Assembly (NCBI RefSeq): GCF_020423045.1 | Contig: NZ_CP081943.1 | Coordinates: 372,001-436,000, forward strand | Source of the DNA: Pseudomonas sp. MM213 | Lineage (GTDB): Bacteria > Pseudomonadota > Gammaproteobacteria > Pseudomonadales > Pseudomonadaceae | Direction of reading: 5' to 3' | Length of the DNA stretch: 64,000 nt | Part shown: piece after piece, positions 2,020 to 42,981 of the stretch | Numbering within the stretch: position 1 is the first letter of the stretch | Layout of the letters: each line of letters opens with the position of its first letter | The notes under the pieces: generated by a model | What the model was told of the DNA's origin: nothing | Database searches by the model: none | The model's input: only the letters and a program-made list of their open reading frames with translations | Program-made: the position numbers and the translations under genes

Positions 2020-3207
2020 TCAGTGAATGCTCGAGGCCAGTTCGAATATCGGGATGTACATCAGGATCACGATGACCCCGATCAACAGGCCGATGAAGGT
2101 CATGAGCAAGGGTTCGAACAAGCGTACGAACCATTCGATCCAGCGGCTGATTTCTTCGTCGTAGAAATCCGCGCTGCGTTCCATCATTTGTCCGAGGTTG
2201 CCGGACTGCTCGCCGGCACGCAGCAAGCGCAGGGACACCGGGGTCACGAGGTGATTGAGCTCCAGCGCCGTCGACAGCGATTGCCCCTCGCGCACCCGCT
2301 CGCAGGCCTGGTCCAGGCGCACGCGGGAGGCCGCGGTGAGCAGGCCACGGACCATGCCCATGGCGGTGACGAGGGGGATGCCGCCCTGCAGCAGAATCCC
2401 CAGCGAGCGATAGAAGCGCGCCAGTTCGTACATGAAGATGCGTTGATGGACTGCCGGGAGTTTTTCGATCACCCGGTCCACGCCCCGGCGAAAGGCCGGT
2501 TGGCGCTGGAGGAAGGCGAGGGCGACGACGACCGCCGCCAAGGTGCCGAAGAATTCACCCTGGTGAGCATGCAGGAACATCCCGCTGTTCATCAGCACTT
2601 GTGACAGCCACGGCAGGTTATTGCCCAGCCCTTCGAACACCAGGCTGAAGCGCGGCACCACGTAACCCATCAGAAACAGCACCACGCCACCTCCCACCAC
2701 CAGCAACAGCATGGGGTAGATCGATGCGCTGACGATCTTCTGTCGAACCTCGTCCATGCGCTGGCGATAGCTGACATAGCGGCCCAGCGCATCGCCCACC
2801 GCGCCGGTCTTCTCGCTGGACTGCACCAGGGCCACGTAGAGCGGGGGGAAAACCGCTGACAACTGACCCAGCGCCTGGGAGAACGATTTGCCCTCATAAA
2901 GCAGGCGCACCAGTTCACTCAAGGTTTTGCGGGCCTGTGGCGCGGTTTCTTTTTCCGCCAGGCTTTCCAGCGCATCGATCAATGGCAGGCCGGCGTTAAG
3001 CAGGGTGGTCAGCTCCTGGCTGAACAGCACCAGGTTGAACGTCTCGCGCTTTTGCAGACGCAACGCCCGCCAGTGCTTTTCGGCTTGCAGGCTGACGACC
3101 CGCAGGCCCTGGTCTTCGGCAATGCGTCGGGCCTCGCTGTCCCCATGGGCCTCGACCGTCATCGAGACCACGCCAGCCTTGCCGACGGCCTTGAGATGAA
3201 AGCGCAT
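2020..3207 (-). CDS. gspF: Type II secretion inner-membrane platform protein GspF
   Basis: At 395 residues this is the usual GspF length. It has the two T2SSF domains (about 65-190 and 270-390), each with a helical bundle (FSQELTTLLNAGLPLIDAL and ELARFYRSLGILLQGGIPL) and membrane segments near 165-190, 215-235 and 365-385. GspF is the polytopic platform that couples the cytoplasmic ATPase to pseudopilus assembly. It is downstream of gspG with a 12-bp gap. No gspF equivalent is present in the larger secretion cluster at 16.9-24.8 kb, so this copy probably serves that machine too. Confidence 0.92.
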   Translation of the reverse strand: MRFHLKAVGKAGVVSMTVEAHGDSEARRIAEDQGLRVVSLQAEKHWRALRLQKRETFNLVLFSQELTTLLNAGLPLIDALESLAEKETAPQARKTLSELVRLLYEGKSFSQALGQLSAVFPPLYVALVQSSEKTGAVGDALGRYVSYRQRMDEVRQKIVSASIYPMLLLVVGGGVVLFLMGYVVPRFSLVFEGLGNNLPWLSQVLMNSGMFLHAHQGEFFGTLAAVVVALAFLQRQPAFRRGVDRVIEKLPAVHQRIFMYELARFYRSLGILLQGGIPLVTAMGMVRGLLTAASRVRLDQACERVREGQSLSTALELNHLVTPVSLRLLRAGEQSGNLGQMMERSADFYDEEISRWIEWFVRLFEPLLMTFIGLLIGVIVILMYIPIFELASSIH

Positions 3208-3219
3208 GCTCGCCTCCCG

Positions 3220-3669
3220 TCACTGCCAACTGGTGATTTCGGCGTTTTCGCCTTCGCCGCCGGGTTGACCGTCCTTGCCCATGGACAACAGGTCGTATTC
3301 ACCGTTTTCGCCGGGGTAGCGGTAGGTGTAATTGCGGCCCCACGGATCCTGCGGCAGTTTTTTCGCCAGGTAGGGGCCGGTCCAGCGGGTTTCGTCACTG
3401 GGCGCGGTGACCAGCGCCTGCAAACCCTGTTCGGTCGACGGGTAATGGCCGACCTCCAGGCGGTACAAATCCAGCGCTTTACCCAGACCTTCGATTTGCG
3501 CCTTGGCCACCTTCACTTCGGAGCGGCCGAGTTGGGCGAAATACTTCGGCGCGACGATGCCGGCCAACAACCCCAGCACCACCAGCACCACCAACAGTTC
3601 GAGCAACGTGAACCCGCGCTGGGCTCGCGGTGAGCCGTTACGCGGGGCACAACACAGACGATGATTCAT
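3220..3669 (-). CDS. gspG: Type II secretion major pseudopilin GspG
   Basis: A prepilin with a 19-residue leader and the processing site G/FTLLEL (Glu5 present), one hydrophobic helix, then the soluble GspG domain with PSTEQGLQALV, a DPWGRNYTYRYPGENGEYDLLSMGKDG segment (split here only for description: DPWG, YxYRYPG, YDLLSMGKDG) typical of the calcium-binding loop, and a terminal TSWQ. The start chosen is the ATG at 3667-3669 with GAGG upstream; the longer reading adds 16 residues without support. GspG is cleaved and N-methylated by a prepilin peptidase, which is not encoded in this window, and polymerises into the pseudopilus. Confidence 0.92.
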   Translation of the reverse strand: MNHRLCCAPRNGSPRAQRGFTLLELLVVLVVLGLLAGIVAPKYFAQLGRSEVKVAKAQIEGLGKALDLYRLEVGHYPSTEQGLQALVTAPSDETRWTGPYLAKKLPQDPWGRNYTYRYPGENGEYDLLSMGKDGQPGGEGENAEITSWQ

Positions 3670-3687
3670 GATGACCTCACACAGTCG

Positions 3688-3702
3688 GCAGAAGGGTCGC
3701 CA
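3688..3702 (-). promoter_or_regulatory. Weak candidate sigma54 promoter for gspG-gspF
   Basis: On the minus strand TGGCGACCCTTCTGC has GG and GC at the -24/-12 spacing, but the -12 box is CTGC rather than TTGC and it lies only about 20 bp from the gspG start, leaving a very short leader. Listed because the neighbouring operons have better matches. Confidence 0.2.
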
Positions 3703-3777
3703 CAGAGGCTCATGCAATTGCCATGCTCACCCCCGGACATCCTGCCGCAACCCCTGAATTACTGGCCTTCGCGCTTA

Positions 3778-3792
3778 CGGCACAGTGCTTGC
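3778..3792 (+). promoter_or_regulatory. Candidate sigma54 promoter for the transglycosylase gene
   Basis: CGGCACAGTGCTTGC matches the -24/-12 consensus (GGCAC, N5, TTGC; GG and GC separated by ten bases) and sits about 72 bp before the ATG at 3865. A GGGGC-AATA-GCCCC hairpin lies between promoter and gene at 3819-3832. Confidence 0.5.
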
Positions 3793-3864
3793 GTATGGCT
3801 GGTTCACTACCGGTCATTGGGGCAATAGCCCCATTTTTCGGGGACGGTCAGGGGAGACAGAATA

Positions 3865-4473
3865 ATGAAAACACTCACCACTGGACTGCTCGGCTGCATG
3901 TTGCTGGCAGGCACAGCTCAGGCCGATGTATTCGTTTCCGTGGACAGCAAGGGCAGCTACGTTTTGTCCAATGTCCACCGCCCCGGCCGTACCTATGAAC
4001 GGGTGATCCGCGAGCCTGAATCGGCGCAGGTCAGCCTTGATCAACAGCCACAAATGATTGCCCGGCAACCCTATGCCGAGCTGGTTTCGGCGGCCGCCAA
4101 GGCCAATCAATTACCGGCGGCGCTGTTGCATGCGGTGATCCAGGCCGAGTCCCACTACGACTCCGGCGCGACCTCATCGAAGGGGGCGGGCGGGCTGATG
4201 CAATTGATGCCCGACACCGCCCGGGAAATGGGCGTGACCAACGTCTATGACCCCAAGGCCAACATTCAGGGCGGGGCCAAATACCTCAAGCGCCTGATGA
4301 CCCTGTTTGACAACGACATCGCGCTCGCCGTGGCGGCCTACAACGCCGGGCCGCAAGCGGTGCTGAGCCGTGGCGGGGTGATCCCGCCGTTCGCCGAAAC
4401 CCGCCGTTATGTGCCGAGCGTGTTGCGCCAATATCGCCGCTTGCAAGGCCTGGCCGTGGATGCGCCGCTGTGA
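3865..4473 (+). CDS. Periplasmic lytic transglycosylase (SLT domain)
   Basis: A 202-residue protein with a signal peptide cleaved near AQA-D (residue 21), a short DUF4124-like strand region (about 22-50), and a Slt family 1 catalytic domain (about 70-185). The catalytic glutamate is in QAESHYDSGATS, followed by KGAGGLMQLMPDTA and AAYNAGPQAV, all diagnostic. It would cut peptidoglycan glycan strands. Such enzymes often accompany trans-envelope machines to open a gap in the wall, which fits its place between gspG/gspF and mnxG and its own sigma54-type promoter. The start has GGGGAGAC upstream. Confidence 0.88.
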   Translation: MKTLTTGLLGCMLLAGTAQADVFVSVDSKGSYVLSNVHRPGRTYERVIREPESAQVSLDQQPQMIARQPYAELVSAAAKANQLPAALLHAVIQAESHYDSGATSSKGAGGLMQLMPDTAREMGVTNVYDPKANIQGGAKYLKRLMTLFDNDIALAVAAYNAGPQAVLSRGGVIPPFAETRRYVPSVLRQYRRLQGLAVDAPL

Positions 4474-4482
4474 TGGGTGATG

Positions 4483-4710: not shown

Positions 4711-4726
4711 TGGCATGCGGATTGCT
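4711..4726 (+). promoter_or_regulatory. Sigma54 promoter of mnxG
   Basis: TGGCATGCGGATTGCT matches the consensus TGGCAyG-N4-TTGCw with exact spacing. It lies 65-70 bp before the mnxG start, behind an A-rich tract. MnxR, encoded at 41554-42981, is a sigma54 activator and the natural candidate to work here. Confidence 0.7.
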
Positions 4727-4781
4727 CCAGGGGATTTGTCGAGAATCATTCCCGTGAGTACCCAAAGCGAGGCCCGTGATT

Positions 4782-7700
4782 ATGACCGGCATACCCCACG
4801 CTCATCATTTGGTTAACTTGCTGCTGCTTGTTGCACCCCTGTTTGGCATCGAGTTGGCCGAAGCCGCCGTGCGTTGTGAACGAAATCTGGTGGCGAACGT
4901 CGTGGCGCTGGATCAACCGCTCATGTTCAACCGCCTCGGCGCACAAAACGCCAACGGCATGATGTTCGCCCTGCGTCGTGATGTAGTCGACGATCACAAT
5001 GTGTCCCTGGCCTACGGTGGCGCAGCGGTGCCGGGCAAGGTTTCGCTGCGGCCCGACAAGCGTCCGCGTCCATTGGTGTTGCGCGTTGCTGCCGGTGACT
5101 GCCTGACCATCAACCTGCAGAACCTGCTGGCCTATCAGGCCAACCCTGGCAGTCACGACAGCGGCGAGGAAGAAGAGGGGGAAATCGAGGGCGAGGTAGA
5201 AATCGGCAACGCGGAGCAGTTCAAGGTCGATGAGCAGGTCACCGACCGCCACGTCGGCTTTCAGGTCAACGGTCTGCAGGCGGTCAACAGCATTGACGAC
5301 ATTTCGGCCTACACCGGACGCAACCCCAATACGCTGGTCGCCCCCGGCGCGACCCGTTCCTACACCTTGTACGCCGAGCGTGAAGGAGCGTTCGCCGCCA
5401 GCAGCCGCGGTGCAACGTTCGGTGGTGAAGGCGATGCGGGCAACGTCGCCAATGGCCTGTTCGGCGAAGTGGTGGTGGTGCCCAAGGGCGGCCGCACCTA
5501 TCGCAACACCGTGACCGAAGAAGAAATGCGCCTCGCCAGCACTGGCCGTACGCCGGCCGGTCAACCGATTGTCGATTACCAGGCACGCTACCCGCAGCGT
5601 GAACCGTGGATTCGTGAAGGCAAGGCCGGCACGCCGATCATCAACATGGTCGACGGCAACGAAATCATCTCCAGCGAGAGCGATGCGATCGTCATGGGCA
5701 GCTACGCCGACGGCAGCTTCCCACCATCGACCTATCCGCTGGAAGCCATCGGCAAACGCAACCCGGCGCTGCCTAACCGGCTGGAACCGTTCCGCGATTT
5801 CGCCTCGCAATTCCAGGATGAAACCGCCGCGACCCAGGCATTCCCCGCGTACTGGGAAGACCCGGTCATGGCCCATGTGCTGGAGCCGACCCGCGATTCG
5901 TTCATGATCAACTACGGCTCCGGCGGCATGGGCGCCGAAGTGGTGGCCAACCGGTTAGGCGTCGGGCCGATGCACGATTGCCTGTCTTGTGCCTATGAAG
6001 AATTCTTCCTCAGCTCGCACACCGTCGGCGACGTGGCGATGCTGGTGGACGTACCGGCCAACGCCGGTCTGGAAAGCATCCGGCCGGGCGAAACACCGCG
6101 CGCCGATCAGGTCGGGGTCAAGGCGACGATGGCGCTGTATCCGTCCGAGCCGTCCAACGTCAACCACAGCTACATCGGTGATTTCGTCAAATTCCGCAAC
6201 ACCCACAACGGCCACGAGCAACACATCTTCCACCTCCACGGGCACCAGTGGCTGTTCAATCCCAACGACGACAACTCTGACTACGTGGACGCCCAAGGCA
6301 TCGGGCCGGGCGCCGGCTACACCTATGAAATCGCCAACGGCGGGTCGGGCAACCGCAATCGCGTCGCCGGTGATGCGATCTATCACTGTCACTTCTATCC
6401 GCACTTCGCCCAAGGCATGTGGAGCATGTGGCGGGTGCACGACGTGTTTGAAGAAGGCACCCGACTCGAGGTGTCCCAGCAGGGCGCCGACGGTTATCAC
6501 AGCGAACCTTATGCACTGCGCAGCGGTAAACCGGCCGCTGGCGCCCGGGCCTTGCCCGATGGCGAGATCATTGCCGGCACGCCGATTCCAGCGGTTGTGC
6601 CGCTACCGGGCAAAGCCATGGCGCCGATGCCGGGCAAGGTCGTGGTCGTGCCGAAAGTCGGTGAGACCCTGGTGGCTGGCAATGATGATGAAGACGGCGA
6701 CGGTGAGCAAAGCGGTGGGGCCCAGGCCATTGGCTCTCTGGCGCTGGTTGACCGCAGCTACGCCAACCGCAACGCCGACGGCAGCCTGAAAAACCCTGGT
6801 TATCCGTTCTGGATCGGTGGCATGGAAAGTTCGGTCGGCCAACGTCCACCAACCCCACCGCTGGACATGCTCGACGCCGCCAAGGCCTATGCCTTGAAAA
6901 CCAGCGGCAATGCCTTGTGGGCCAACCTCGATCCGGCGCAGTCCGGTGGCTGGGACGGCGGTTTGGGACGCCATTCCCTGGACGGTTTCTCTGCCGGTGG
7001 CGAGGCGAACACCGTGACCACCTCGCTGGATTTCTCCAAGGAAGTGACCCGCGCCAAAGCGCTTTACCTGCCGGAAGAGGGCACCGAAGTCGAACAGGCG
7101 GCCATGGCCTTCCACGCGAAAAAAGACCACCCGAGCTTCGCCGTGCTGCCCGGCAATCAAATCGTCGCACGCGCCTTCCGCACTAACGGTGCGCTGCCAG
7201 TCGCCGGTGCACCTTTCTACGAACCGTGCATGGACGACCGGCAAAAACGCCTGACCAGCAGTGCCGGCATGGGCGAGTTTTTCAGCGGCGAACGGCTCGA
7301 CGGCATGTCCTTCAGCGGGGCCTCGACCTTCACGGCTGACCGGCCACGGGTCTACAAAGCGGCGAACATCCAGTTCGACGCGGTCTACAACAAGGTCGGC
7401 TACCACTTCCCGCAAGCGCGCATTCTGGCCCTGTGGGAAGACGCCTGGCCGGTGATCACCAAGCAGCGTCCGCCAGAGCCTTTGGTGATGCGCATGAACA
7501 CCCTCGACTGCGTGCAATACCAGCAAACCAACCTGGTGCCGGCCACTTATGAAATGGACGACTATCAGGTGCGCACGCCGACTGACGTGATCGGCCAGCA
7601 CATTCATTTGCCGAAATGGGACCTGACGGCGGCGGACGGTTCGGCCAACGGCTGGAACTACGAAGACGGCGTACTTTCCCCCGGTGCGGTGCAAGAACGC

Positions 7701-10589
7701 ATCCACGCCATCCGCGAGTTCAACCAATGCCAGGGCACCGACCCGCGTGATGGCACACCGGCCTGCCCGAAAGCTAAAAACCACCCGTACTTCGGCCAGT
7801 TTGGCCGGGCCGACTGGGTCGGGGCGCGCACTGCGATGCAGCGCTGGTTTGCCGACCCGGTGGTGAACAGCAAAGGCGTCGACCGTGGCCTGGGGACCAT
7901 TTTCACCCACGATCACCTCGGGCCATCGACTCACCAGCAGATTGGTCTGTACGCCACGGTGCTGGCTGAACCGGCCGGTTCCACCTGGTTCCACGCCGAA
8001 ACCGGCGAGCCGTTGTACAGCGGTGCGCGCCAGGATGGCGGGCCGACTTCGTGGCAAGCCGTGGTGTCCACCGGCGATCTGGATGGCGACGGCAAGAACG
8101 ACAGCTTCCGTGAGTTCTTCCTTGAGTACAGCGACTTCCAGCATGCCTATGAAGCCGGTGTGTACGTGGGCGCGGGTCCCAATGGGGTGCCGAATCCACA
8201 AGCGTTCCCGGCCACCGCGGACAGTTTCCGCTACGCGATCAATCCGCCGGTGCGCAACAACGCCAGCACCCTGTTGGACGGCATCCTCGAAGTGCAGGGC
8301 GGTATGGTCCCCGGTTGCCCGAGCCGGCCGTGCCCGCAAGCGATCTCGGTCGATGACCCCGGCATGTTCGTGGTCAACTACCGCAACGAACCGCTGGCCC
8401 TGCGGGTATACGACCCCTACAAGATCGGCCCGGACGGCAAGCGCGGCATGCAGGCCTACGGCCTCGGCGGCGATCTGGCGTACGCCATGCAAAGCCGCAC
8501 CGACCGTGCGATCCCGGCGATGAACCAGGCGCCGAACCTGATCACCGCCGCCACCGGCCCGACTGGCGGCACCACCTTGTTCCCGCCGCACATCAACCGT
8601 GGCGGCGCGGAACCGGGTGATCCGTTCACGCCGATGCTGCGTACCTACACCGGTGACAACGTGCGGCTGCGGGTGCATGCCGGCGGTCACGAAGAAGAGC
8701 ACAACGTGACCCTGCACGGGGTGAAGTGGCTGCAAAGCGGTTCCGGTTACGGCAACAGCTCCAACTCGGGTTGGCGCTCGTCGCAAATGATCGGGATCTC
8801 CGAGCAAATGGGCTTCATTGCGCCGGTCTCGATGCTGTCCAGTTCGGCGGCGACCACGGGTGATTACCTGTACTCGATGGACGCCTCCCTCGAAGGTTAC
8901 TGGAGCGGGATCTGGGGCGTGATGCGCAACTACACGGCCCAGCGCAGCGATCTGTTCGCGCTGCCGAACAACCCGAAACCGGCGGGGATGCGCAACACCG
9001 TGGCGTTCGACGGTACCTGCCCACGGATCAGCGCCAACCCGAACGGCATCGGCACCCGGCCGACCGTGCAACGCAACTATGAAGTGGTCGCGGCACTGGC
9101 CAACGACATTCTTGGCAATCCGCTGAACCTGGTCCTCGGCGATCCGGAGGGCATCGGCCAGCATGTCGGCGGGCCGTTGAATCCGGCGGGCGGCACCCTG
9201 GTGTACAACTCGCGGGTGGTCAATATCCCGCAGGTCACGGTGACCGATCCGGAGGATGGCGAAACCATCACCATCGGCGGGCAAAGCGGTCCGCTGCATG
9301 ACCCGACCGCGATCATTTACGTGCGCAAGGCTGACCTCGACACGGTCACCGGCAAGCTAAAACCCGGTGTGCCTGTCGAACCGCTGGTGCTGCGCGCAAC
9401 GGCGGGGGACTGCATCAACATCACCCTGGAAAACCGTCTGCCCATGGTCATGCCGGACCTGACCCAGACGGCGGTGATGCAAGGCATCGTCAAACGCGAT
9501 CGCAACAGCGGACAGGGCTCGACCACCTTCAGCAACAACCTGGTGCGGCCGTCCAGCCACGTGGGCCTGCACGCGCAATTGCTGGCGTACGACATCACCA
9601 AATCCGACGGCACCAACGTCGGCGCCAACCCGATCCAGACCGTGCCACCGCGGGTTGGCAACAGCGGCGCCTACCCGACCCGTACGTATCAGTACTACGC
9701 CGGGCACCTGGAGCGTGAAGGAAAACCGATCACTCAACTGGGCCGCAACGTCGACAACATCAACGCCACGGCCGTGGAGTTCGGCGGGTTGAATTTCACC
9801 CCGGCGGACGTGATCAAGCAACCGCAGAAAGGCCTGGGTGGCGCGATGAGCATCCTGCCGGTCGGCGCTACCTGGGTGGACGACGCGCGCAAAGTCACGG
9901 CGACGGTCACCGCACCGGGGCAGACCCCTTACCGCGACTTTGCGATGGTCTGGCAGAAAGCCTTGAACATTCGCTGGGCCAATGGCCGGCCGGTGGAAGG
10001 CATCGCTGCCGAAGGCTTCGGTGTGCCGACCGATCCGCAGGACAACTCAAGCATGGCCATCAACTACAAGTCCGAGCCGATATGGTTCCGCTTCGGCCTG
10101 GCGCCGGATGCGCCGTTCGGTCATGCCGACGGCGCGGGTTACGGCGACGTGCCCAACGCGCACATGGCGTACAGCAATGCGCTGGTGGGCGGCGATCCGC
10201 AGACGCCGGTGCTCTATGTGAAACCGGGGCAACCGTTTCGCACGCACATCCTGATGCCATCCGGGGGTAGCCGCGGCACGACCTTCCAGCTGGACGGCCA
10301 CGTCTGGTCGGTCAACCCGTTCCAGTCGGAGAAGAGCGACACCAGCGGTTATCCGATGAGTACGCCTGGCGTGGGTTCGGTGCGGTTCGGGCTCAACCCG
10401 ATGTCGATGTACATCGGCGCCCGCGAAAGCATCCTGCCGGCGGCGCACTTCAGCTTCATGCACCCGAGCGCCGGGGGCAGCAACGCGATACCGGGCGACT
10501 ACCTGTTCCGCGATTACGGCGCCTACGGCAATACCGCCGGGCTCTGGGGCTTGTTGCGCGTGACCAACGAACCTGAACCGGCACCTTAG
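4782..10589 (+). CDS. mnxG: Giant manganese-oxidizing multicopper oxidase MnxG
   Basis: About 1935 residues, matching the unusual size of the P. putida GB-1 Mn(II) oxidase MnxG and far above ordinary multicopper oxidases (500-600). A signal peptide (about 1-27) is followed by many cupredoxin-like modules. Copper ligands are visible as HIFHLHGHQW (near residue 480), YHCHFYPHFAQGMW (near 537, type 1 and trinuclear ligands), QHIHLPKW (940), FTHDHLGPSTHQ (1042), TLHGVKW (1310), GLHAQLLAYD (1594), LDGHVW (1836) and HFSFMHP (1890). An EF-hand-like loop DLDGDGKNDSF sits near 1098. The expected role is extracellular or outer-surface oxidation of Mn(II) to Mn(IV) oxide. The ATG at 4782 follows GAGG; a GTG at 4776 is possible. 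The family assignment is by size, motifs and the mnxS/mnxR neighbourhood. Confidence 0.88.
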   Translation: MTGIPHAHHLVNLLLLVAPLFGIELAEAAVRCERNLVANVVALDQPLMFNRLGAQNANGMMFALRRDVVDDHNVSLAYGGAAVPGKVSLRPDKRPRPLVLRVAAGDCLTINLQNLLAYQANPGSHDSGEEEEGEIEGEVEIGNAEQFKVDEQVTDRHVGFQVNGLQAVNSIDDISAYTGRNPNTLVAPGATRSYTLYAEREGAFAASSRGATFGGEGDAGNVANGLFGEVVVVPKGGRTYRNTVTEEEMRLASTGRTPAGQPIVDYQARYPQREPWIREGKAGTPIINMVDGNEIISSESDAIVMGSYADGSFPPSTYPLEAIGKRNPALPNRLEPFRDFASQFQDETAATQAFPAYWEDPVMAHVLEPTRDSFMINYGSGGMGAEVVANRLGVGPMHDCLSCAYEEFFLSSHTVGDVAMLVDVPANAGLESIRPGETPRADQVGVKATMALYPSEPSNVNHSYIGDFVKFRNTHNGHEQHIFHLHGHQWLFNPNDDNSDYVDAQGIGPGAGYTYEIANGGSGNRNRVAGDAIYHCHFYPHFAQGMWSMWRVHDVFEEGTRLEVSQQGADGYHSEPYALRSGKPAAGARALPDGEIIAGTPIPAVVPLPGKAMAPMPGKVVVVPKVGETLVAGNDDEDGDGEQSGGAQAIGSLALVDRSYANRNADGSLKNPGYPFWIGGMESSVGQRPPTPPLDMLDAAKAYALKTSGNALWANLDPAQSGGWDGGLGRHSLDGFSAGGEANTVTTSLDFSKEVTRAKALYLPEEGTEVEQAAMAFHAKKDHPSFAVLPGNQIVARAFRTNGALPVAGAPFYEPCMDDRQKRLTSSAGMGEFFSGERLDGMSFSGASTFTADRPRVYKAANIQFDAVYNKVGYHFPQARILALWEDAWPVITKQRPPEPLVMRMNTLDCVQYQQTNLVPATYEMDDYQVRTPTDVIGQHIHLPKWDLTAADGSANGWNYEDGVLSPGAVQERIHAIREFNQCQGTDPRDGTPACPKAKNHPYFGQFGRADWVGARTAMQRWFADPVVNSKGVDRGLGTIFTHDHLGPSTHQQIGLYATVLAEPAGSTWFHAETGEPLYSGARQDGGPTSWQAVVSTGDLDGDGKNDSFREFFLEYSDFQHAYEAGVYVGAGPNGVPNPQAFPATADSFRYAINPPVRNNASTLLDGILEVQGGMVPGCPSRPCPQAISVDDPGMFVVNYRNEPLALRVYDPYKIGPDGKRGMQAYGLGGDLAYAMQSRTDRAIPAMNQAPNLITAATGPTGGTTLFPPHINRGGAEPGDPFTPMLRTYTGDNVRLRVHAGGHEEEHNVTLHGVKWLQSGSGYGNSSNSGWRSSQMIGISEQMGFIAPVSMLSSSAATTGDYLYSMDASLEGYWSGIWGVMRNYTAQRSDLFALPNNPKPAGMRNTVAFDGTCPRISANPNGIGTRPTVQRNYEVVAALANDILGNPLNLVLGDPEGIGQHVGGPLNPAGGTLVYNSRVVNIPQVTVTDPEDGETITIGGQSGPLHDPTAIIYVRKADLDTVTGKLKPGVPVEPLVLRATAGDCINITLENRLPMVMPDLTQTAVMQGIVKRDRNSGQGSTTFSNNLVRPSSHVGLHAQLLAYDITKSDGTNVGANPIQTVPPRVGNSGAYPTRTYQYYAGHLEREGKPITQLGRNVDNINATAVEFGGLNFTPADVIKQPQKGLGGAMSILPVGATWVDDARKVTATVTAPGQTPYRDFAMVWQKALNIRWANGRPVEGIAAEGFGVPTDPQDNSSMAINYKSEPIWFRFGLAPDAPFGHADGAGYGDVPNAHMAYSNALVGGDPQTPVLYVKPGQPFRTHILMPSGGSRGTTFQLDGHVWSVNPFQSEKSDTSGYPMSTPGVGSVRFGLNPMSMYIGARESILPAAHFSFMHPSAGGSNAIPGDYLFRDYGAYGNTAGLWGLLRVTNEPEPAP

Positions 10590-16705: not shown

Positions 16706-16728
16706 GCCCCCGCCTTTGGGGGGGCGGT
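16706..16728 (+). terminator. Candidate terminator of the mnxG operon
   Basis: A very GC-rich stem, CGCCCCC pairing with GGGGGCG around CTTTG, lies about 50 bp after the parvulin stop. The downstream bases are only moderately T-rich (GTGTATTTGGG), so intrinsic termination is uncertain. Confidence 0.4.
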
Positions 16729-16797
16729 GTATTTGGGCGGAAAGGCTTTTTTATGAAAATCAAACACATGCAGTGGTGAAACACCCGGCACCCAGCC

Positions 16798-16812
16798 TGG
16801 CATGAAGTGTGC
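16798..16812 (+). promoter_or_regulatory. Possible sigma54 promoter of the secretion-curli operon
   Basis: TGGCATGAAGTGTGC has a good -24 half (TGGCATG) and the right spacing, but the -12 element is GTGC rather than TTGC. It is about 70 bp before the TTG start at 16881. Confidence 0.35.
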
Positions 16813-19989: not shown

Positions 19990-19990
19990 C

Positions 19991-23424: not shown

Positions 23425-23426
23425 TC

Positions 23427-23900: not shown

Positions 23901-23904
23901 GCTT

Positions 23905-29634: not shown

Positions 29635-29693
29635 GAGACTGTCCTTTCGCAAGAGGCCAGCCCCATCGGCCACGTGACCGATGGGGCCAAGGC

Positions 29694-31943: not shown

Positions 31944-31978
31944 GATGCCTCCTGATGCGGATCTGGGCATGAGAGCGT

Positions 31979-33386: not shown

Positions 33387-33401
33387 GCAACTTCCGTACC
33401 A
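33387..33401 (-). promoter_or_regulatory. Sigma54 promoter of the secreted-protein/curlin operon
   Basis: On the minus strand TGGTACGGAAGTTGC has GG and GC at exact -24/-12 spacing with a full TTGC. It is about 60 bp before the ATG at 33325. Confidence 0.6.
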
Positions 33402-33489
33402 ATCGTTGGAAACGGCCGGCAAAGGCCCGGCATTACAGCGTTTCGCTATTAAGCGTTGCCTGGATGCCGGACGAACCAACGGGCGACTG

Positions 33490-33504
33490 TCCCCAGCATT
33501 GGGG
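33490..33504. promoter_or_regulatory. G4A/TC4 inverted repeat upstream of the curlin operon promoter
   Basis: TCCCC-AGCATT-GGGG, read on the other strand as CCCCAATGCTGGGGA, closely resembles CCCCAATAGTGGGGA at 16666-16680. It sits about 90 bp upstream of the -24 box. Role as activator site is inference. Confidence 0.35.
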
Positions 33505-35962: not shown

Positions 35963-36000
35963 GGGGACGAACTTTCCCCGGTTGCGGGTGTCATTCCCCA
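35963..36000. promoter_or_regulatory. Candidate MnxR sites upstream of the second oxidase gene
   Basis: GGGGA-N7-TCCCC at 35963-35979 and ATTCCCCA at 35993-36000 (TGGGGAAT on the other strand) lie 85-120 bp upstream of the sigma54 promoter at 36086. The same TGGGGAAT word occurs at 4646 before mnxG. Confidence 0.35.
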
Positions 36001-36085
36001 GTCGTTTTTCAGGGCATGGCAAATTGATGTTGATAAGCCATTGTTTTAACGAGCATTAGTGCGTTTGTATAGGCTGTAGCAAGTC

Positions 36086-36101
36086 TGGCGAGCTCCTTGC
36101 A
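36086..36101 (+). promoter_or_regulatory. Sigma54 promoter of the second multicopper oxidase operon
   Basis: TGGCGAGCTCCTTGCA has TGGC and TTGCA with exact -24/-12 spacing, about 42 bp before the gene start. Confidence 0.65.
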
Positions 36102-36142
36102 AAACCCCCATTACCCCCTTCACGACTTCGAGGCGGCTGGTG

Positions 36143-38950
36143 ATGGACAGAAAAGCGCTGCACCCCTGCAAATGGTTTGGTCTCCTGACGCCCCTTAGCG
36201 TTTTTGTGGCCATGACGCTCGGCACAACGAGCCTGCGCGCCAGCCCGATCGACGACGAGGGGCAGCCGCCACCTTCCGACCCTTCGGCGTATTACGACGA
36301 GCCGGCTGACAAGGCAGGTGCCTTGAACGCCATTTTGACCATGCCCCCCGCCAACCTGGATGCCTTCGACTTGCCGGCTGGCGTCAAAGGCACCCGAGAG
36401 ACCCCGCTCAAGGAAAACGTCCTTCCGCCGGCGATACAGACCAGCTTCAATTACCCTACCAACGGCAAACCCAGCCCGTTGTACGGTGCTCTGCCGTTCA
36501 CCCAGCAACTGGTGCTGTTCGAAGAGTTCGGTCCGGAAAAACTCGACCCCACCACCCCGGCGGCACAGTTGCCGTTTCCACCGGCCGCCATCGGCCCGCT
36601 GCCGCAACAGGATCCCACCAGCGTCGCTCGCAGCGCTCCGCCGAGTGCGGCGCTCGACGCTTTCATGCGGCAACCCGGACTGACCCCGTTTCCCAGCCAT
36701 TATTCCAACGTGGTCGACCGCAACCCTTGGCAGAAGCAGATCGAATTTTTCCTCAACCGGCGTATCGGTTCGTCGGCTGAAGGCCGTCCACCAGGAAAAG
36801 GCTGGTCGCACCAGCGCTGGAACGAGTTTTACCCGCAGATCGCCTACAAGACTGTGCAATCCGGCGCACGGGTGAATACCGGGTTGCGTGACAGTCGTCA
36901 GATGCACCGCTATGCCATGGGCGAGTTTGGCCCCGGTGGCCTCTATTACAATGTGGCTGGCCTGCCGACGACCGTAGGCACCGCCAAAGGCGTCGATGCG
37001 CGTTTTCACCCGAAAATGCCGGTGCAGAACCACAAATCGGTCTGGACCTTCGACGGCACCTTGCCACCGAAATTGCTCATGGTGCGTTACGGACAACCCG
37101 TGCTGATGCGCCATTACAACGCCTTGCCGATCGACCCGTCGGCGAACATGGGTTTTGGTCTGCACACCCTCAGCACCCACGAACACAATGGTCACCAACC
37201 GGCGGAAAGCGACGGTTATGCCAACGCATTTTTCTTCCCCGGGCAATTCTACGACTATCGCTGGCCGATCCAGTTGGCTGGCTACGACAGCATCAACACC
37301 ACGGCTACAGACCCGCGTGCAGCTTTTCCGTGCTCGCCGGGCGAAACCCTGTGGACCAACGACCTCATCCCCAGCCGCAAGACCTGCGACAACGGCACGA
37401 TCAAGATCCGTGGCGACTGGCGCGAAACCATGAGCACCCACTGGTTTCACGACCACATGCTCGATTTCACCGCGCAGAACGTCTACAAGGGCAACGCGGC
37501 GATGATGAACTACTACAGCGCCCTGGACCGTGGCAATGAAGCGGTGAATGACGGCGTCAACCTGCGTTTACCCAGTGGCAACGCCTTGCCTTGGGGCAAC
37601 CGCGACTACGACGTCAACCTGCTGTTTGCCGATAAAGCGTGGGACAAGAACGGTCAACTGTGGTTTAACCCGTTCAATACCGACGGCTTCCTCGGTGATC
37701 AGGTGCTGGTCAACTGGCAGTGGAAACCGGTCCTGGATGTGCGCGCCCGCAGCTATCGGTTCCGCATGCTCAATGGCTCGGTGTCGCGCTACTTCAAACT
37801 GGCGCTGGTGCGCGAAATCAAGGGCACCGGCGGCGAGTTCCCAGGGCCTGTCGGGTCAGGCTTGTCGTACGCCCGTGTGCCGTTCCACATGATTGCCAAC
37901 GACGGCAACATCATGGAACACGCCGTGCCATTCGACGGCACCATGGACCTGGATGCCGACGGCGATACTCAAAATCACAACGCGATCCTGCCAACCATGG
38001 GTATCGCCGAGCGTTTCGACATCGTCGTCAACTTCTCGAAAAACGGGGTCAAGGCGGGCGACAAGCTGTTCTTCGTCAACCTGCTGGTGCACGAAGACGG
38101 CAAGGGCCCGGAAGAACCCGTCGCCCTGGCTGACGTGCTGTCCGAGAAGTACAAGGCCGTCATCAGGCAATCCAGCAAGGGGCCGAAGTGGGAGGACGGT
38201 GATCCGGCGATAGGCAAAGTGTTGCAATTCAACGTCAAGGCCTACACCGGTCAGGACCTGGCCATGGACCCGGCGGCCTATGAACCGGCCAAACCGGGCA
38301 AGGCTGAAGGCCTGGTGATGATCCCGCTGAAAATTCACCGCGATAATGTGGCCGACAAGGCGCTGCTGGCCAAGGCCCGTCATCGCACCTTCACCTTCGG
38401 TCGTTCCGACGGCACCGATTCGGCGCCCTGGACAATCAAGACCGACGGCGGTTTCGGTTTCAGAATGGACCCTCGTCGGCTGAACGTCTCGACCAAACTG
38501 GCCTCTGGCCCGACCGATGCCGGCGTCACGGGCTTCGGTACGCTGGAAGTGTGGAACATCAAGCTCGGCGGCGAGGGCTGGAGCCACCCGGTTCACGTGC
38601 ACTTCGAGGAGGGGATCATCCTCAGTCGCGGCGGCAAGCTACCACCGGAATGGGAAAAATGGGCACGTAAGGACGTGTACCGCATCGGTCCGGAAAAGGA
38701 CGGCCTGGACAGCGTCGAGATTGCGATCCACTTCCGCGAATTCGCCGGGACGTACATGGAGCACTGCCACAACACTCAACATGAGGACAACTCCATGCTG
38801 TTGCGTTGGGACGTTGAGAAACCGGGGCAACTGCAATTGATGCCGGTTCCGCTGCCGAGCTGGGATGGTGTGCGCTACGTGAACTCTGCTGCACTGCCAA
38901 CCTTCCGCACCGGCGATGGCTACGGCCCACAAGTGGTGATCAAGCCATGA
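36143..38950 (+). CDS. Second multicopper oxidase
   Basis: About 935 residues with a signal peptide (about 1-33). All four copper-binding blocks are present: HEHNGH (near 345), STHWFHDH (near 431), HPVHVHFEEG (near 816) and the type 1 block MEHCHNTQHEDNSM (near 872). It is longer than laccases because of an N-terminal region of some 200 residues rich in Pro and inserts between blocks. Placed between mnxS1 and mnxS2 and behind a sigma54 promoter, it is likely a Mn(II) or metal oxidase. P. putida GB-1 has a second Mn oxidase, McoA; I cannot say whether this is its orthologue, so no symbol is given. A GTG at 36140 is an alternative start; GAGG precedes both. Confidence 0.88.
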   Translation: MDRKALHPCKWFGLLTPLSVFVAMTLGTTSLRASPIDDEGQPPPSDPSAYYDEPADKAGALNAILTMPPANLDAFDLPAGVKGTRETPLKENVLPPAIQTSFNYPTNGKPSPLYGALPFTQQLVLFEEFGPEKLDPTTPAAQLPFPPAAIGPLPQQDPTSVARSAPPSAALDAFMRQPGLTPFPSHYSNVVDRNPWQKQIEFFLNRRIGSSAEGRPPGKGWSHQRWNEFYPQIAYKTVQSGARVNTGLRDSRQMHRYAMGEFGPGGLYYNVAGLPTTVGTAKGVDARFHPKMPVQNHKSVWTFDGTLPPKLLMVRYGQPVLMRHYNALPIDPSANMGFGLHTLSTHEHNGHQPAESDGYANAFFFPGQFYDYRWPIQLAGYDSINTTATDPRAAFPCSPGETLWTNDLIPSRKTCDNGTIKIRGDWRETMSTHWFHDHMLDFTAQNVYKGNAAMMNYYSALDRGNEAVNDGVNLRLPSGNALPWGNRDYDVNLLFADKAWDKNGQLWFNPFNTDGFLGDQVLVNWQWKPVLDVRARSYRFRMLNGSVSRYFKLALVREIKGTGGEFPGPVGSGLSYARVPFHMIANDGNIMEHAVPFDGTMDLDADGDTQNHNAILPTMGIAERFDIVVNFSKNGVKAGDKLFFVNLLVHEDGKGPEEPVALADVLSEKYKAVIRQSSKGPKWEDGDPAIGKVLQFNVKAYTGQDLAMDPAAYEPAKPGKAEGLVMIPLKIHRDNVADKALLAKARHRTFTFGRSDGTDSAPWTIKTDGGFGFRMDPRRLNVSTKLASGPTDAGVTGFGTLEVWNIKLGGEGWSHPVHVHFEEGIILSRGGKLPPEWEKWARKDVYRIGPEKDGLDSVEIAIHFREFAGTYMEHCHNTQHEDNSMLLRWDVEKPGQLQLMPVPLPSWDGVRYVNSAALPTFRTGDGYGPQVVIKP

Positions 38951-38967
38951 TCCGCAGGGGAGCCGAC

Positions 38968-39984
38968 ATGACACTGCACACGCCGCGCTCCCGCGCACTG
39001 GGCATGCACCTGATTCTGGTACTGGTGACGTTTTTGCTGGCCAGCCAGGTGCTGCTCGCTCATGAAGGCGCACTGTCGCCGTCGCCGACGGAATCGGCGA
39101 CACCCTGGGGGCGCGATTACTTTCCCAACACCTTGCTGACCGACCAGGACGGTCGGCAGGTGCGTTTTTTCGATGACATGATCAAAGGCAAAGTGGTGGT
39201 GATCAACTTCATCTTCACCACGTGCAGCGATTCCTGCCCGCTGGAAACCGCGCGCCTGCGCCAGGTGCAGCAGTTGTTGGGGCCCCGGGTCGGCCAGGAT
39301 ATTTTTTTCTACTCGATCAGCATCGATCCTTTGAGCGATACACCCGAGGTGCTCAAGGCCTACGCGCAGCGCTTCAAAGTCGGGCCGGGCTGGCAGTTCC
39401 TCACCGGGGAGTTCGAGGCCGTCACCGACCTGCGCAAAAAGCTCGGGCTGTTTATCGAGGGCGTCGACAACGGTCGCAGCAAGGACCACAACCTGAGCCT
39501 GATCGTCGGCAACCAGGGCACCGGTCGCTGGATGAAAGCCTCACCGTTCGAGAACCCATGGATCCTCGCCGATCAGTTGGCCAATACCTTGCAGAACTGG
39601 AAGCAACCCAGTGTTGAAGAAAATTATGCCGATGCGCCCGAGATCCGCCCGCCGAGCAACGGCGAAGAGTTGTTTCGCACCCGTTGCGCCTCGTGCCACA
39701 GCCTCGGGCCGCAAGACGGGCAGGGCATCGGCATGCGCGCCATCGGCCCGGACCTGATCGGCGTAACCCGCGTGCGCGATCCCGCCTGGCTCAATCGCTG
39801 GATCCGAGAACCGGATCGCATGCTGGCCGAAAAAGACCCGATTGCGCTGGAACTGTTTCAACGCTTCGACAAAATCCCGATGCCAAACCTGCGCCTTGAT
39901 GAGAAAGCGGCGCAGTCCATCATTGATTTTTTGCAGGAGGAAACCGATCGTCAGCAATCGTTGCAAGCGGCGCAGGTGCCATAG
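38968..39984 (+). CDS. SCO1/SenC copper chaperone fused to cytochrome c
   Basis: 338 residues with a signal peptide ending near LLA-HEG (about 32). The SCO domain (40-205) has CxxxC in FTTCSDSCPLE (near 83-91) and the distal histidine in KDHNLSLIVGN. The C-terminal domain (about 225-325) is a class I cytochrome c with heme site CASCHSLG (near 240) and Met ligand candidate PMPNL. The ATG at 38968 follows AGGGGAG; an ATG at 38947 overlapping the oxidase stop (ATGA) is also possible. It probably loads copper into the oxidase and relays electrons. Confidence 0.88.
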   Translation: MTLHTPRSRALGMHLILVLVTFLLASQVLLAHEGALSPSPTESATPWGRDYFPNTLLTDQDGRQVRFFDDMIKGKVVVINFIFTTCSDSCPLETARLRQVQQLLGPRVGQDIFFYSISIDPLSDTPEVLKAYAQRFKVGPGWQFLTGEFEAVTDLRKKLGLFIEGVDNGRSKDHNLSLIVGNQGTGRWMKASPFENPWILADQLANTLQNWKQPSVEENYADAPEIRPPSNGEELFRTRCASCHSLGPQDGQGIGMRAIGPDLIGVTRVRDPAWLNRWIREPDRMLAEKDPIALELFQRFDKIPMPNLRLDEKAAQSIIDFLQEETDRQQSLQAAQVP

Positions 39985-40088: not shown

Positions 40089-41585
40089 ATGCAGATACTC
40101 GAACAACAAAAAGTACCTGCTCCGTCGAACCTTCCGGCGGGGGAATGCACGAGCTGGCGTGGCGAATTCAATCTGCTGCGCTGGTTTTCCTTTGCCAGTT
40201 TTTTGATCATTGCCGCCGTGGCGGCGGGGCTGGGGTACATCTCCACCCGTTTCGTGGTGGAGGAGAGCATCGAACGCGATTCCATGCTGACCGCGCAATT
40301 TATCCAGGCCATCGGTGCTGCCGAAATCCGCCACGCATCGATTTCCCCGGAAAGAACCATGGGCGAAATGCTCGATTCTCGCCTGGATAACGCCCATCCC
40401 GACGTGAACCCGGGCGCACGTGCTGCGGCGCGCATCGAGTTTCTCGATCATGTGGCAAACCTGCCGGACCTGCTGTTGGCCACGGTGTATGCCCAGGATC
40501 GCACCGTGGTCTGGTCGACCAACCCGGAGCTGATCGGCGTACGCATCGAAGACGACGATGAACTGGACGAATCTTTCGAAATGAAGGAGCCCGTTTCCAC
40601 CAGCTACCACGAAGTCGATGAAGAACGTCCCGAACAAAAACTGTTGCACGAGCCCCAGTACCTGTTCGTTGAAAACTACATCCCGATGTTCAACGCCGAC
40701 AAAAGCAAAGTCATCGCCATGGTCGAGGTCTACAAGGAGCCTACTGATCTGGTTGAACGTATCCAGCGCGGTTTCAAGGCCATCTGGCTGGCCACCGTGC
40801 TCGGTGGTGCCGCCATCTACTTGGGGCTGTTCTGGATTGTGCGGCGTGCGGCGAAGCTGATCGAGAGTCAGCAGAAACAGCTGATCGCCAACGAAACCTT
40901 CGTCGCGCTGGGGGAAATGTCTTCGGCCGTGGCCCACAGTTTGCGCAACCCGCTGGCGAACATTCGCTCCAGCGCCGAACTGGCCCAGGAAATCGCCAGT
41001 CAGAGCGCGCAGAAGAACATCGGCGACATCATCAACCAGGTCGATCGCATGTCGCGCTGGGTTCGCGAGTTGCTGGTGTCGTTGCGGCCGGTGAATGACG
41101 ACTACGAAACCGTGGACCTGGTGCTGGCCATCGACGACACCCTGAGTGCCTTTGACGCGCTGATCAAGCGCTCCGGTGTCGAAGTCCGGTTCACGCCGCA
41201 GGTTTGCCCACCGGTCGTCAGCCAACAGGTGCTGCTCACGCAAATTCTCAATAGCCTGTTCGCCAATGCCCTGGAAGCCATGCCCAAGGGCGGCGTGCTG
41301 AGCATCGATATCGAGTCGCCGCAGTCCGGACTCTTGCGCATGACCCTGAGCGACACCGGCAAGGGCATGACCAAACAGCAGCAACAAATGGTTTTCAAAC
41401 CGTTTTTCACCACCAAACAAGGCGGGTTGGGTGTGGGCCTGGCCCTGGTCAAAAGAATAATGGAGCGTTTTGAAGGTTCGGTCGAACTGACCAGCCAGGA
41501 GCAGGAAGGAACCCGCGTTTGTCTGAACTTCAAAGTGGCAACGGGAGGGGAATATGGGGTACAGCATTCTGCTGGTCGAGGATGA
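40089..41585 (+). CDS. mnxS2: Sensor histidine kinase MnxS2
   Basis: 498 residues, same layout as MnxS1: membrane helices near 32-52 and 233-255 bracketing a periplasmic sensor region (HASISPERTMGEML, VWSTNPELIGV, LFVENYIPMF), HisKA with SSAVAHSLRNPLANIRSS (His near 283), and HATPase with NSLFANALEAM, SDTGKGM, PFFTTKQGGLGVGL. The shared sensor motifs with MnxS1 (VWSTNP, ENYIP.F, VE.YKEP) suggest related ligands. Its 3' end overlaps mnxR by 32 bases, so the pair is co-translated. Confidence 0.87.
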   Translation: MQILEQQKVPAPSNLPAGECTSWRGEFNLLRWFSFASFLIIAAVAAGLGYISTRFVVEESIERDSMLTAQFIQAIGAAEIRHASISPERTMGEMLDSRLDNAHPDVNPGARAAARIEFLDHVANLPDLLLATVYAQDRTVVWSTNPELIGVRIEDDDELDESFEMKEPVSTSYHEVDEERPEQKLLHEPQYLFVENYIPMFNADKSKVIAMVEVYKEPTDLVERIQRGFKAIWLATVLGGAAIYLGLFWIVRRAAKLIESQQKQLIANETFVALGEMSSAVAHSLRNPLANIRSSAELAQEIASQSAQKNIGDIINQVDRMSRWVRELLVSLRPVNDDYETVDLVLAIDDTLSAFDALIKRSGVEVRFTPQVCPPVVSQQVLLTQILNSLFANALEAMPKGGVLSIDIESPQSGLLRMTLSDTGKGMTKQQQQMVFKPFFTTKQGGLGVGLALVKRIMERFEGSVELTSQEQEGTRVCLNFKVATGGEYGVQHSAGRG

Positions 41586-42981
41586 CGAAATCCTCGCCGG
41601 GAATCTTCAGACCTACCTGGAACGCAAAGACTTCGAGGTGACGGTCTGCCACTCGGCTGAAGATGCGCTGAAGCAAATGAACACGTTTGCCCCGGACGTC
41701 GTACTGACCGACAACTCGTTGCCGGGCATGAGCGGTCACGATCTGATCCAGAAGCTGCGTATCAGCGCGCCGGACCTGAAAGTGATCATGATGACCGGCT
41801 ACGGCAATGTCGAAGACGCCGTGGTGGCGATGAAAGAAGGCGCGTTCCATTACGTCACCAAACCGGTGGCGCTGCCGGAACTCAAGCTGTTGCTGGACAA
41901 GGCCCTGGCCACCGAGCGGATGGAGCGCACGCTGTCGTTCTATCAGGAACGCGAAGCGCAGAAGTCGGGGGTGCAGGCGTTGATCGGCGAATCGGGGCCC
42001 ATGGTCTTTCTGAAAAACACCATCGGCCAGTTGCTCGACGCCGAGCGCCGGATGGCCAACGCCGATTTGCCGCCGGTGCTGGTGGAAGGCGAGACGGGCA
42101 CCGGCAAGGAACTGGTGGCCCGCGCGCTGCATTTCGATGGCCCGCGCAGCAAGGGCCCGTTCATTGAATTCAACTGCGCGTCGATTCCCTCCAATCTGGT
42201 GGAGTCGGAGCTGTTCGGCCACGAGAAGGGGGCATTCACCGACGCCAAGGACCGTCGCGTCGGCCTTGTGGAAGCGGCGGATGGCGGCACCTTGTTTCTC
42301 GATGAAGTCGGGGAAATGGACCTGCTGCTGCAAGCCAAACTGCTGAAGCTGCTGGAAGACCGGACCATTCGCCGGGTCGGTTCGGTGAAGGAGCGCAAGG
42401 TTGATTTGCGGGTGATCAGCGCAACCAATTGCAACCTCGAACAAATGGTCCAGCAGGGCAAGTTCCGCCGCGACCTGTTCTTCCGTTTGCGCATCATTTC
42501 GATCAAGGTGCCGCGCCTTTATACCCGTGGCGAAGACGTCCTGTTGCTGGCCCGGCACTTCCTCGCCATCCACGGCAAACGCTATGGCAAACCGAACCTG
42601 CATTTCAGCGAACAGGCCGAAGAATTGCTCATGAGCTACAGCTGGCCGGGCAACGTGCGCGAGTTGCGCAACATGCTCGAACAAACCGTGCTGCTGGCCC
42701 AGTACGACACCATCGCCGCGCACCAGTTGAACGTCTGCCTGAGCCTGGTGGACGAGCCGGTGGCGATGCCCGAGGCGCCCCATAATGAAGTGCGCCCGGC
42801 GTACAACGGCAACGAGTCGATGAACCTGCCGGAGGTCGAGCGCGACATGGTGCGCAAGATGCTCGACAAGACCGACTGGAACGTCACCAAGTCCGCACGG
42901 CTGCTGGGTTTGAGCCGCGACATGCTGCGTTACCGGATCGAAAAACTCGGCCTCGCCCGCCCGGACAAGCGTCAGTGGTAG
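41554..42981 (+). CDS. mnxR: Sigma54-dependent response regulator MnxR
   Basis: 475 residues in NtrC layout: receiver (1-120; acidic ED/D 9-11, phospho-acceptor Asp53 in DVVLTDNSLPGMSG), AAA+ domain (about 145-380) with Walker A GETGTGKE, the sigma54 contact loop as GAFTDA instead of GAFTGA, Walker B GGTLFLDEVGEM and the R-finger region FRRDLFFRL, and a C-terminal Fis-type helix-turn-helix (NVTKSARLLGLSRDMLRYRI). It should activate sigma54 promoters on phosphorylation by MnxS1/MnxS2. Four good sigma54 promoters lie in this window before oxidase, curlin and lytic genes. Confidence 0.92.
   Translation: MGYSILLVEDDEILAGNLQTYLERKDFEVTVCHSAEDALKQMNTFAPDVVLTDNSLPGMSGHDLIQKLRISAPDLKVIMMTGYGNVEDAVVAMKEGAFHYVTKPVALPELKLLLDKALATERMERTLSFYQEREAQKSGVQALIGESGPMVFLKNTIGQLLDAERRMANADLPPVLVEGETGTGKELVARALHFDGPRSKGPFIEFNCASIPSNLVESELFGHEKGAFTDAKDRRVGLVEAADGGTLFLDEVGEMDLLLQAKLLKLLEDRTIRRVGSVKERKVDLRVISATNCNLEQMVQQGKFRRDLFFRLRIISIKVPRLYTRGEDVLLLARHFLAIHGKRYGKPNLHFSEQAEELLMSYSWPGNVRELRNMLEQTVLLAQYDTIAAHQLNVCLSLVDEPVAMPEAPHNEVRPAYNGNESMNLPEVERDMVRKMLDKTDWNVTKSARLLGLSRDMLRYRIEKLGLARPDKRQW

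Follow-up and report, generated by a model that had tools for sequence, protein, structure and literature searches.

A putative manganese-oxidation surface regulon in Pseudomonas linking mnxG, an Xcm-like secretion cluster and curli genes

The window analysed here is a stretch of 64,000 nucleotides from the genome of Pseudomonas sp. MM213 (contig NZ_CP081943.1, positions 372,001 to 436,000), and the locus of interest occupies positions 2020 to 42981 of it. At this locus the gene for the manganese-oxidising multicopper oxidase MnxG and its helper genes lie between two parts of a type II secretion system (T2SS)-like cluster, the second of which runs into the curli export genes csgEFG. The curlin genes, a second multicopper oxidase gene (mcoA) and the regulatory genes mnxS1, mnxS2 and mnxR follow. 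This gene content, with its positions, had been read from the letters alone in an initial annotation, and Pfam and NCBIfam scans of the open reading frames of the window bear it out. Sequence comparisons indicate that mnxG, the secretion cluster (termed xcm below), csgEFG, csgBA, the genes for two secreted proteins (h448 and Big9) and mnxR are co-inherited in Pseudomonas, and that three of the operons have a common, putative bipartite promoter.

The first part of the secretion cluster is on the minus strand and encodes the T2SS inner-membrane protein F (2020..3207; Pfam T2SSF, 193 bits) and the major pseudopilin G (3220..3717; Pfam T2SSG, 149.5 bits; TIGR01710, 192 bits, above its cut-off). 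The genes from there to csgG are on the plus strand. A sigma-54-like site, CGGCACAGTGCTTGCG (3778..3793, plus strand), precedes a gene for a lytic transglycosylase (3865..4473; Pfam SLT, 95.6 bits), which probably serves assembly of the machine. A sigma-54 promoter (4711..4726, plus strand) precedes mnxG (4776..10589), whose start codon is probably at 4782. The mnxG operon continues with a beta-propeller protein (10889..12841; family-profile matches), two SCO1/SenC copper chaperones (12855..13511 and 13508..14128; Pfam), a periplasmic binding protein with a cytochrome c-like part (14138..15688; the cytochrome c match is weak, E 6e-4) and a SurA/PpiC-type prolyl isomerase (15704..16657; Pfam).

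The xcm-csgEFG operon begins, behind a dyad and sigma-54 promoter found by motif scans (16708..16812), with a response-regulator receiver protein (16881..17414; Pfam) and a GspE-type ATPase (17499..19205; PF00437, 418 bits). Four inner-membrane proteins follow (19213..21589); these are L-like, N-like (PilN), M-like (T2SSM_b) and P-like, the N and M assignments being based on weak matches and those of L and P, which have no match, on gene order. The outer-membrane channel is a TPR-secretin (21586..23424; PF00263, 138.8 bits). Three pseudopilin-like proteins (23421..24793; individually 23427-23900, 23905-24279 and 24254-24793) come next, the first two with an N-methylation motif and the third recognised by position and N-terminus only. 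The operon closes with csgE (24790..25179; NF007701, 167.2 bits, above its cut-off), csgF (25176..25610; PF10614) and the curli pore gene csgG (25641..26498; PF03783, 272.6 bits). Four-base overlaps had also been claimed for the locus, and by coordinates they are present at six junctions: SCO1a/SCO1b, M/P, P/secretin, third pseudopilin/csgE, csgE/csgF and mcoA/SCO1. Because of these overlaps, csgEFG is read as the end of the xcm operon. In alignments of 26 loci, 23 have a gap of -4 to +8 bp between pseudopilin and csgE, and the other three have one of 52 to 107 bp.

The curlin operon is on the minus strand. From its dyad and sigma-54 promoter (33387..33504; motif scans) it reads h448, an uncharacterised secreted protein (31979..33325); Big9, a secreted protein with an h448-like N-terminal part and Ig/cadherin-like repeats (29694..31982; profile matches and homologue search); csgB (29173..29637; CsgB model, E 3e-25, under its cut-off); and csgA, a 481-residue acidic curlin of net charge -33 (27700..29145; Curlin_rpt and PDB 8c50). 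With CsgE, CsgF, CsgG and curlin-repeat subunits present, the genes belong to the curli, or type VIII, secretion system. The remaining genes are on the plus strand: the histidine kinase gene mnxS1 (34514..35959), a dyad-like site and sigma-54 site of mcoA (35974..36101; motif scans), mcoA (36140..38950; profile and homologue searches), an SCO1-cytochrome c fusion (38947..39984; Pfam), the histidine kinase gene mnxS2 (40089..41585; Pfam) and mnxR, which encodes a sigma-54-type response regulator (41554..42981; Pfam).

Much of this order agrees with published loci (PMC11409713, cited here, like the PMC papers below, from the parts available). P. putida GB-1 and Pseudomonas sp. DSV-1/MS-1 have the same six-gene mnxG operon as the window, and in DSV-1/MS-1 mcoA-SCO1 likewise lies between mnxS1 and mnxS2, an order that also identifies mnxS1 here. 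The published gene numbers imply 17 genes between SurA and mnxS1; the window has 17 without a DUF6124 gene near the curlin operon (33579-33950, minus strand; profile match) and 18 with it. DUF6124-like genes are found on either strand in several related loci.

The MnxG of the window scores 3914.8 bits with the NCBIfam MnxG equivalog NF041487 (cut-off 3100) and is thus a member of that family. It is homologous (E 2.9e-74) to the solved MnxG of PDB 9bxa, taken here to be that of Bacillus, a homologous oxidase that has 1227 residues compared with the 1935 of the window protein.

The secretion cluster carries T2SS ATPase E, platform F, pseudopilin G and secretin domains, all four above the Pfam gathering cut-offs. 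With the NCBIfam equivalog models GspG passes, and GspD (155 against 351 bits), GspE (493 against 630) and GspF (288 against 424) fall under their cut-offs; because of these three, the machine is classed as T2SS-like of the Xcm type and not as a standard Gsp set. No Pfam match to GspC or the minor pseudopilins H-K was found among the window proteins scanned, and the third pseudopilin-like protein, the only one of the three so scanned, has no NCBIfam match. The cluster is read as a reduced, Xcm-like type II system. Xcm-like T2SS, about 30-52% identical, are also present without mnxG (L066, 16890-19696, and L065), and in genome G037 (L066) an LPMO_10/GbpA-like gene adjoins such a machine and is perhaps its cargo. 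Lytic polysaccharide monooxygenases (LPMOs) use copper, and the arrangement in G037 fits dedicated export of a copper enzyme.

The locus was compared by homologue search across 149 Pseudomonas genomes, 47 with MnxG and 102 without; the genomes are related and were counted without a species tree, so that the numbers are not of independent gains or losses. The secretin is found at 71% identity or more in the same 47 genomes, and in the others only as a contig-end fragment (G021) and as two 35% relatives (G044, G037). CsgG is present in 46 of the 47, all but G137, and in three other genomes at 50-53% identity. Both h448 and MnxR are found in every MnxG genome and in just one of the 102 others, G021. 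McoA is present in 44 of the 47 and in G021, and in G087 as a fragment with a stop only. Chance linkage of mnxG with secretin, CsgG, h448 and MnxR was considered and rejected, given the presence of the last four in 46 to 47 of 47 MnxG genomes and in only one to three of the remaining 102.

These genes are also close to one another. In 43 of the 47 genomes mnxG and the secretin gene lie on one strand, 10.4-12.3 kb apart; three have the two on separate draft contigs and G102 is rearranged. In all 46 genomes with CsgG, csgG lies less than 4 kb from the secretin gene. Of 80 named GTDB loci, 72 include 9 kb of sequence downstream, and 69 of these carry the operon with the genes from beta-propeller to GspE, the exceptions being two mnxG arrays (L172, L173) and L167, which has no operon within 10 kb. 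The curlin operon is more loosely placed: of the 47 genomes, 31 have h448 less than 40 kb from mnxG, five have it on one contig with mnxG at a distance of 114-604 kb, and in 11 the two are on different contigs. The order h448, Big9, csgB, csgA on one strand is nevertheless kept in 41 of 44 genomes (of 48, leaving out G002, G053, G074 and G077; the order was read without a frame-by-frame check and in part from matches of at least 30% coverage, and G076 ends at a contig end). Pairwise protein distances for nine genes in 24 genomes have correlations of 0.81-0.95, as expected for joint inheritance, though any vertically inherited genes would give the same. The single module proposed in the initial annotation would be in doubt if mnxG loci generally lacked linked curli and secretion genes; in Pseudomonas they generally have them.

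Such linkage might be a matter of historical hitch-hiking in one chromosomal region, without shared control. Both systems are surface-directed and could occupy a common hotspot, and the relatedness of the genomes inflates the counts. However, co-occurrence and promoter are both kept where the curlin operon is unlinked, 114-604 kb from mnxG, and the bipartite promoter described below is common to, and almost confined to, these operons. Hitch-hiking is therefore already disfavoured and appears highly improbable.

Outside Pseudomonas, MnxG relatives were found in three of 273 genomes compared at the class level (G181, G302 and G176). In G181 and G302, relatives of T2SS E, F, G and secretin (27-59% identical) lie beside mnxG, with genes H-K read by eye from their N-termini. 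Because of these neighbours the secretion link looks older, or repeated. No csg gene was found near mnxG in 21 kb of G181, 48 kb of G302 or 20 kb of G176, and G176 has neither T2SS relatives nor csg within 20 kb around its mnxG relative. The curli link is thus a Pseudomonas feature, in a small sample outside the genus. At the phylum level, G511 has a partial MnxG relative, the sole one besides that of the MM213 genome among 349 genomes.

This bears on the question of whether the Xcm machine mainly serves h448 and Big9, or the curlins, and not MnxG. The association of h448 and Big9 with the secretin is as close as that of MnxG, and in G021, where mnxG is lost, both remain with xcm. On the other hand, T2SS relatives flank mnxG in G181 and G302 as well, and the related machine beside the LPMO gene of G037 fits export of a dedicated cargo. 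A machine chiefly for proteins other than MnxG seems improbable, if slightly less so than hitch-hiking.

Several observations weigh against a tight tie between oxidase and curli. G137 is without csgF, csgG and csgA and has only fragments of csgE and csgB, yet its mnxG, xcm, h448, Big9 and mcoA are retained. In G049, csgA and Big9 are fragmented and h448 carries three stops, yet mnxG and xcm are kept; in G127, csgG was matched as two pieces at a contig end. The absence of csg near mnxG outside the genus points the same way, as does the fact that related genomes do not count as independent events. The pattern in G021 is a different one: MnxG is lost there, the xcm stretch is without the beta-propeller gene, the genome gives no CsgG match and csgBA is missing beside Big9, but MnxR, h448, Big9 and xcm, the last as far as a contig end within the secretin, are retained.

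A rival reading takes curli as a co-induced but separate biofilm output: MnxR would induce the oxidase and its exporter together with an adhesive coat, and the fibre would touch neither enzyme nor mineral. In its favour, three genomes have lost or damaged curli genes, and mnxG and xcm persist in two of them; the curlin operon is more than 100 kb from mnxG in five of the 47 genomes and on another contig in 11; and no csg gene lies beside mnxG in the 20 to 48 kb examined outside Pseudomonas. Against a separate output stand the position of csgG, less than 4 kb after the secretin in all 46 genomes, and G021, where the loss of mnxG goes together with the absence of a CsgG match and of csgBA next to Big9, although MnxR, h448, Big9 and part of xcm are kept. 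A separate output is judged rather unlikely. The proposal of a single functional module is partly supported: the locus is a conserved, co-inherited module with a common promoter type, and G137 and G049 speak against strict coupling.

Promoters were scanned within 300 bp upstream of genes. For sigma-54 sites GG and GC were fixed and eight other positions scored; for the dyad, with consensus TTCCCC-N6-GGGGAA, 9 or more of 12 was a match. Expectations for the sigma-54 sites came from dinucleotide shuffles, and only loci in which the gene start is reached were counted, 8 to 28 per gene among 30 sequences (14 for mcoA). A sigma-54 score of at least 6 was obtained at 25 of 25 mnxG and 14 of 14 mcoA upstreams (0.40 and 0.15 expected), and one of at least 5 at 26 of 26 xcm, 19 of 19 transglycosylase and 17 of 24 h448 upstreams (2.3, 2.6 and 2.05 expected). 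In two displayed (G029, G036) of the seven h448 misses the -12 GC reads GT. Most genes within operons are near background. Dyads scoring at least 9 were found at mnxG in 20 of 25, xcm in 26 of 26, h448 in 22 of 24 and mcoA in 13 of 14 (2.45, 1.8, 4.1 and 1.1 expected). The dyad, TTCCCC-N6/7-GGGGAA, lies about 60 to 140 bp upstream of the -24/-12 sigma-54 site. Dyads also occur upstream of mnxS1 (16 of 21) and mnxS2 (11 of 21); these counts were not used because mnxS1 is sometimes about 300 bp from h448 (G029) and some mnxS2 rows are on mnxS1.

Further sequences, beyond those that defined the motif, were the upstreams of 14 more h448 genes and six unlinked mcoA genes. The pair of dyad and sigma-54 site is present at 14 of 14 of these h448 genes, with 0.12 expected over all 20 sequences. 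A strict composite pattern has two matches in the MM213 genome, a single contig of 6.75 Mb, and these are the xcm-csgEFG and h448 promoters. In the 149 genomes it has 99 matches in 51 genomes, against three for a reversed control pattern. Of the 99, 93 are at xcm (45), h448 (28) and mnxG (20, in 19 genomes); two are in the fragmented G076, probably at its xcm and h448 promoters, and four are elsewhere (G087, G035, G112, G132). With the 93 and the two counted, no MnxG genome is without such a promoter, and neither is G021; G076 is included through its probable ones. Apart from G021, three of 101 genomes lacking MnxG have a match. Since these promoters served to define the pattern, its recall is circular; its specificity and its fit to three different operons are not. 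Neither the sigma-54 nor the dyad element was found in five further csg operons, which belong to other lineages or are second copies.

Other results of the scans count against so simple a promoter type. The sigma-54 score is moderately above background at csgF (11 of 27), the beta-propeller gene (11 of 24) and the SCO1-cytochrome c gene (5 of 13). At mnxG the dyad scores below 9 in 5 of 25 loci, and in the window its best match is about 210 bp from the sigma-54 site. The dyad spacer is not sharply defined: owing to runs of C and G, a length of 7 scores as well as 6, and lengths of 5 and 8 almost as well. Dyads are also seen at PP1 and csgG, in 7 of 28 each (1.85 and 1.95 expected), with 0 to 4 at other inner genes. 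The unlinked mcoA genes have the sigma-54 site in six of six and the pair in one of six, the dyad being weak there. More IHF-like sites than expected lie upstream of mnxG (9 of 25), xcm (10 of 26) and mcoA (9 of 14), and an IHF site as a common element fails at h448 (0 of 24).

Nevertheless, the motif scans indicate that the mnxG, xcm-csgEFG and h448-Big9-csgB-csgA operons have a common bipartite promoter, and the shared promoter type proposed in the initial annotation is upheld for these three. A MnxR regulon would have a sigma-54 site and an upstream dyad at each operon; the pair is found at mnxG, xcm-csgEFG and h448-csgBA, and partly at mcoA, which has the sigma-54 site and, in the clade of the window, a weaker dyad. 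In GB-1 the mnxG and mcoA promoters require Mn(II) and stationary phase and have predicted IHF and sigma-54 sites (PMC11930936). In MS-1 an rpoN::Tn5 insertion abolishes Mn oxidation, and the regulator MnxR has been predicted to depend on sigma-54 (PMC11409713).

The explanation preferred here, and considered probable, is that the locus is a manganese-oxidation surface regulon, a Mn-switched MnxR programme in which MnxG is released into a curli matrix made simultaneously. MnxS1 and MnxS2 would sense Mn(II) in stationary phase and activate MnxR, which would bind the dyads and open the sigma-54 promoters, thereby co-inducing the oxidase, exporter, curli pore, curlins, h448 and Big9. MnxG would pass into the periplasm, receive copper from the SCO1-type chaperones, fold and leave through the Xcm machine, as CsgG at the same time exports acidic curlins. 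MnxG may thus be released into, and MnO2 deposited in, a curli matrix formed at the same moment. Two points tell against this explanation: the dyads are assigned to MnxR by inference, and contact between MnxG and curli is a proposal, since nothing in the sequence shows it. A more specific version is tentative and has somewhat less than an even chance; in it, Pseudomonas would form an extracellular organelle of biomineralisation, where copper-loaded MnxG, exported by a dedicated T2SS, would be caught on acidic curli by way of h448 and Big9 as obligate partners, the amyloid would template MnO2, and sensing of Mn through MnxS/MnxR would, in this lineage, replace CsgD in curli control. If the regulon exists as proposed, Mn oxide would be a matrix component that the cells of the biofilm position deliberately, which bears on the purpose of bacterial manganese oxidation and on the site at which the mineral is formed. 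The comparison offers a candidate regulator for csgD-less Pseudomonas curli, a motif, two co-conserved secreted proteins and natural curli-loss strains.

h448 and Big9 are secreted paralogues, and matches of E <= 1e-40 occur, among the 149 genomes, only in the 47 with MnxG and in G021. By this distribution they are candidate new parts of Mn oxidation, predicted extra secreted components that are perhaps associated with the fibre or the oxidase. Against PDB sequences the best h448 match is only E 0.03; its structure, predicted from a shallow alignment, is all-beta, with a mean pLDDT of 48.9. Acidity of the curlin was dropped as a mark of mnx-linked curli: four csgA of another lineage are near neutral in charge, and the second csg copies of G042 and G060 are also acidic.

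The window shares CsgE, CsgF, CsgG and the curlin-repeat proteins CsgA and CsgB with the curli of Enterobacterales and the Pseudomonas curli of PMC3521004. It differs from them in that csgEFG lies behind the xcm sigma-54 promoter and that no csgD-type regulator was found among the open reading frames scanned with Pfam in 2020-42981, the remaining genome not having been searched for csgD. Pseudomonas curli operons, except that of P. stutzeri, are without a nearby csgD (PMC3521004), and the sigma-54/dyad promoter is a candidate answer to this absence.

The initial annotation knew of no described link between the Mn oxidase, curli and a private secretion system. For curli this holds among the matches listed from the open-licence literature searched, where no description of a link to Mn oxidase was found, although subscription papers may say more. 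The available part of PMC3056050 treats P. putida csgEFG/csgAB and Mn oxidation apart; the text of PMC11409713 is without 'secretion', 'pilin', 'gsp' and 'type ii' and does not name mnxG together with curli. The curli part alone is thus without earlier description in that literature. The secretion part is not new. A Gsp-related pathway for the Mn-oxidising factor of P. putida GB-1 has reportedly been in print since 2003, as the title of the de Vrind paper of that year has it. This Xcm pathway, named in PMC4509608, is, like the cluster of the window, T2SS-like and tied to Mn oxidation in Pseudomonas, and what is added to it here is the fusion with csgEFG and the sharing of promoters.

Additional copies of the oxidase genes were also seen. 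A second McoA-like oxidase of the MM213 genome (G000:C1:616181-618871) is 75% identical and has a longer reading frame. L172 and L173 (P. schmalbachii and P. jinjuensis) have three successive mnxG matches beside GspF/G and the transglycosylase gene, on one strand by tblastn. G087 has a second mnxG (G087:C4:266986-306985; L056, L057; 76%), which adjoins a divergent csg operon of another lineage and has no xcm; it was not counted for co-regulation because the sigma-54 site faces mnxG only. By eye, clusters of repetitive extragenic palindromic (REP)-like repeats lie after mnxG (10610-10870) and between csgG and csgA (26540-27650), where they are contained in the 1.2 kb that separate these two genes.

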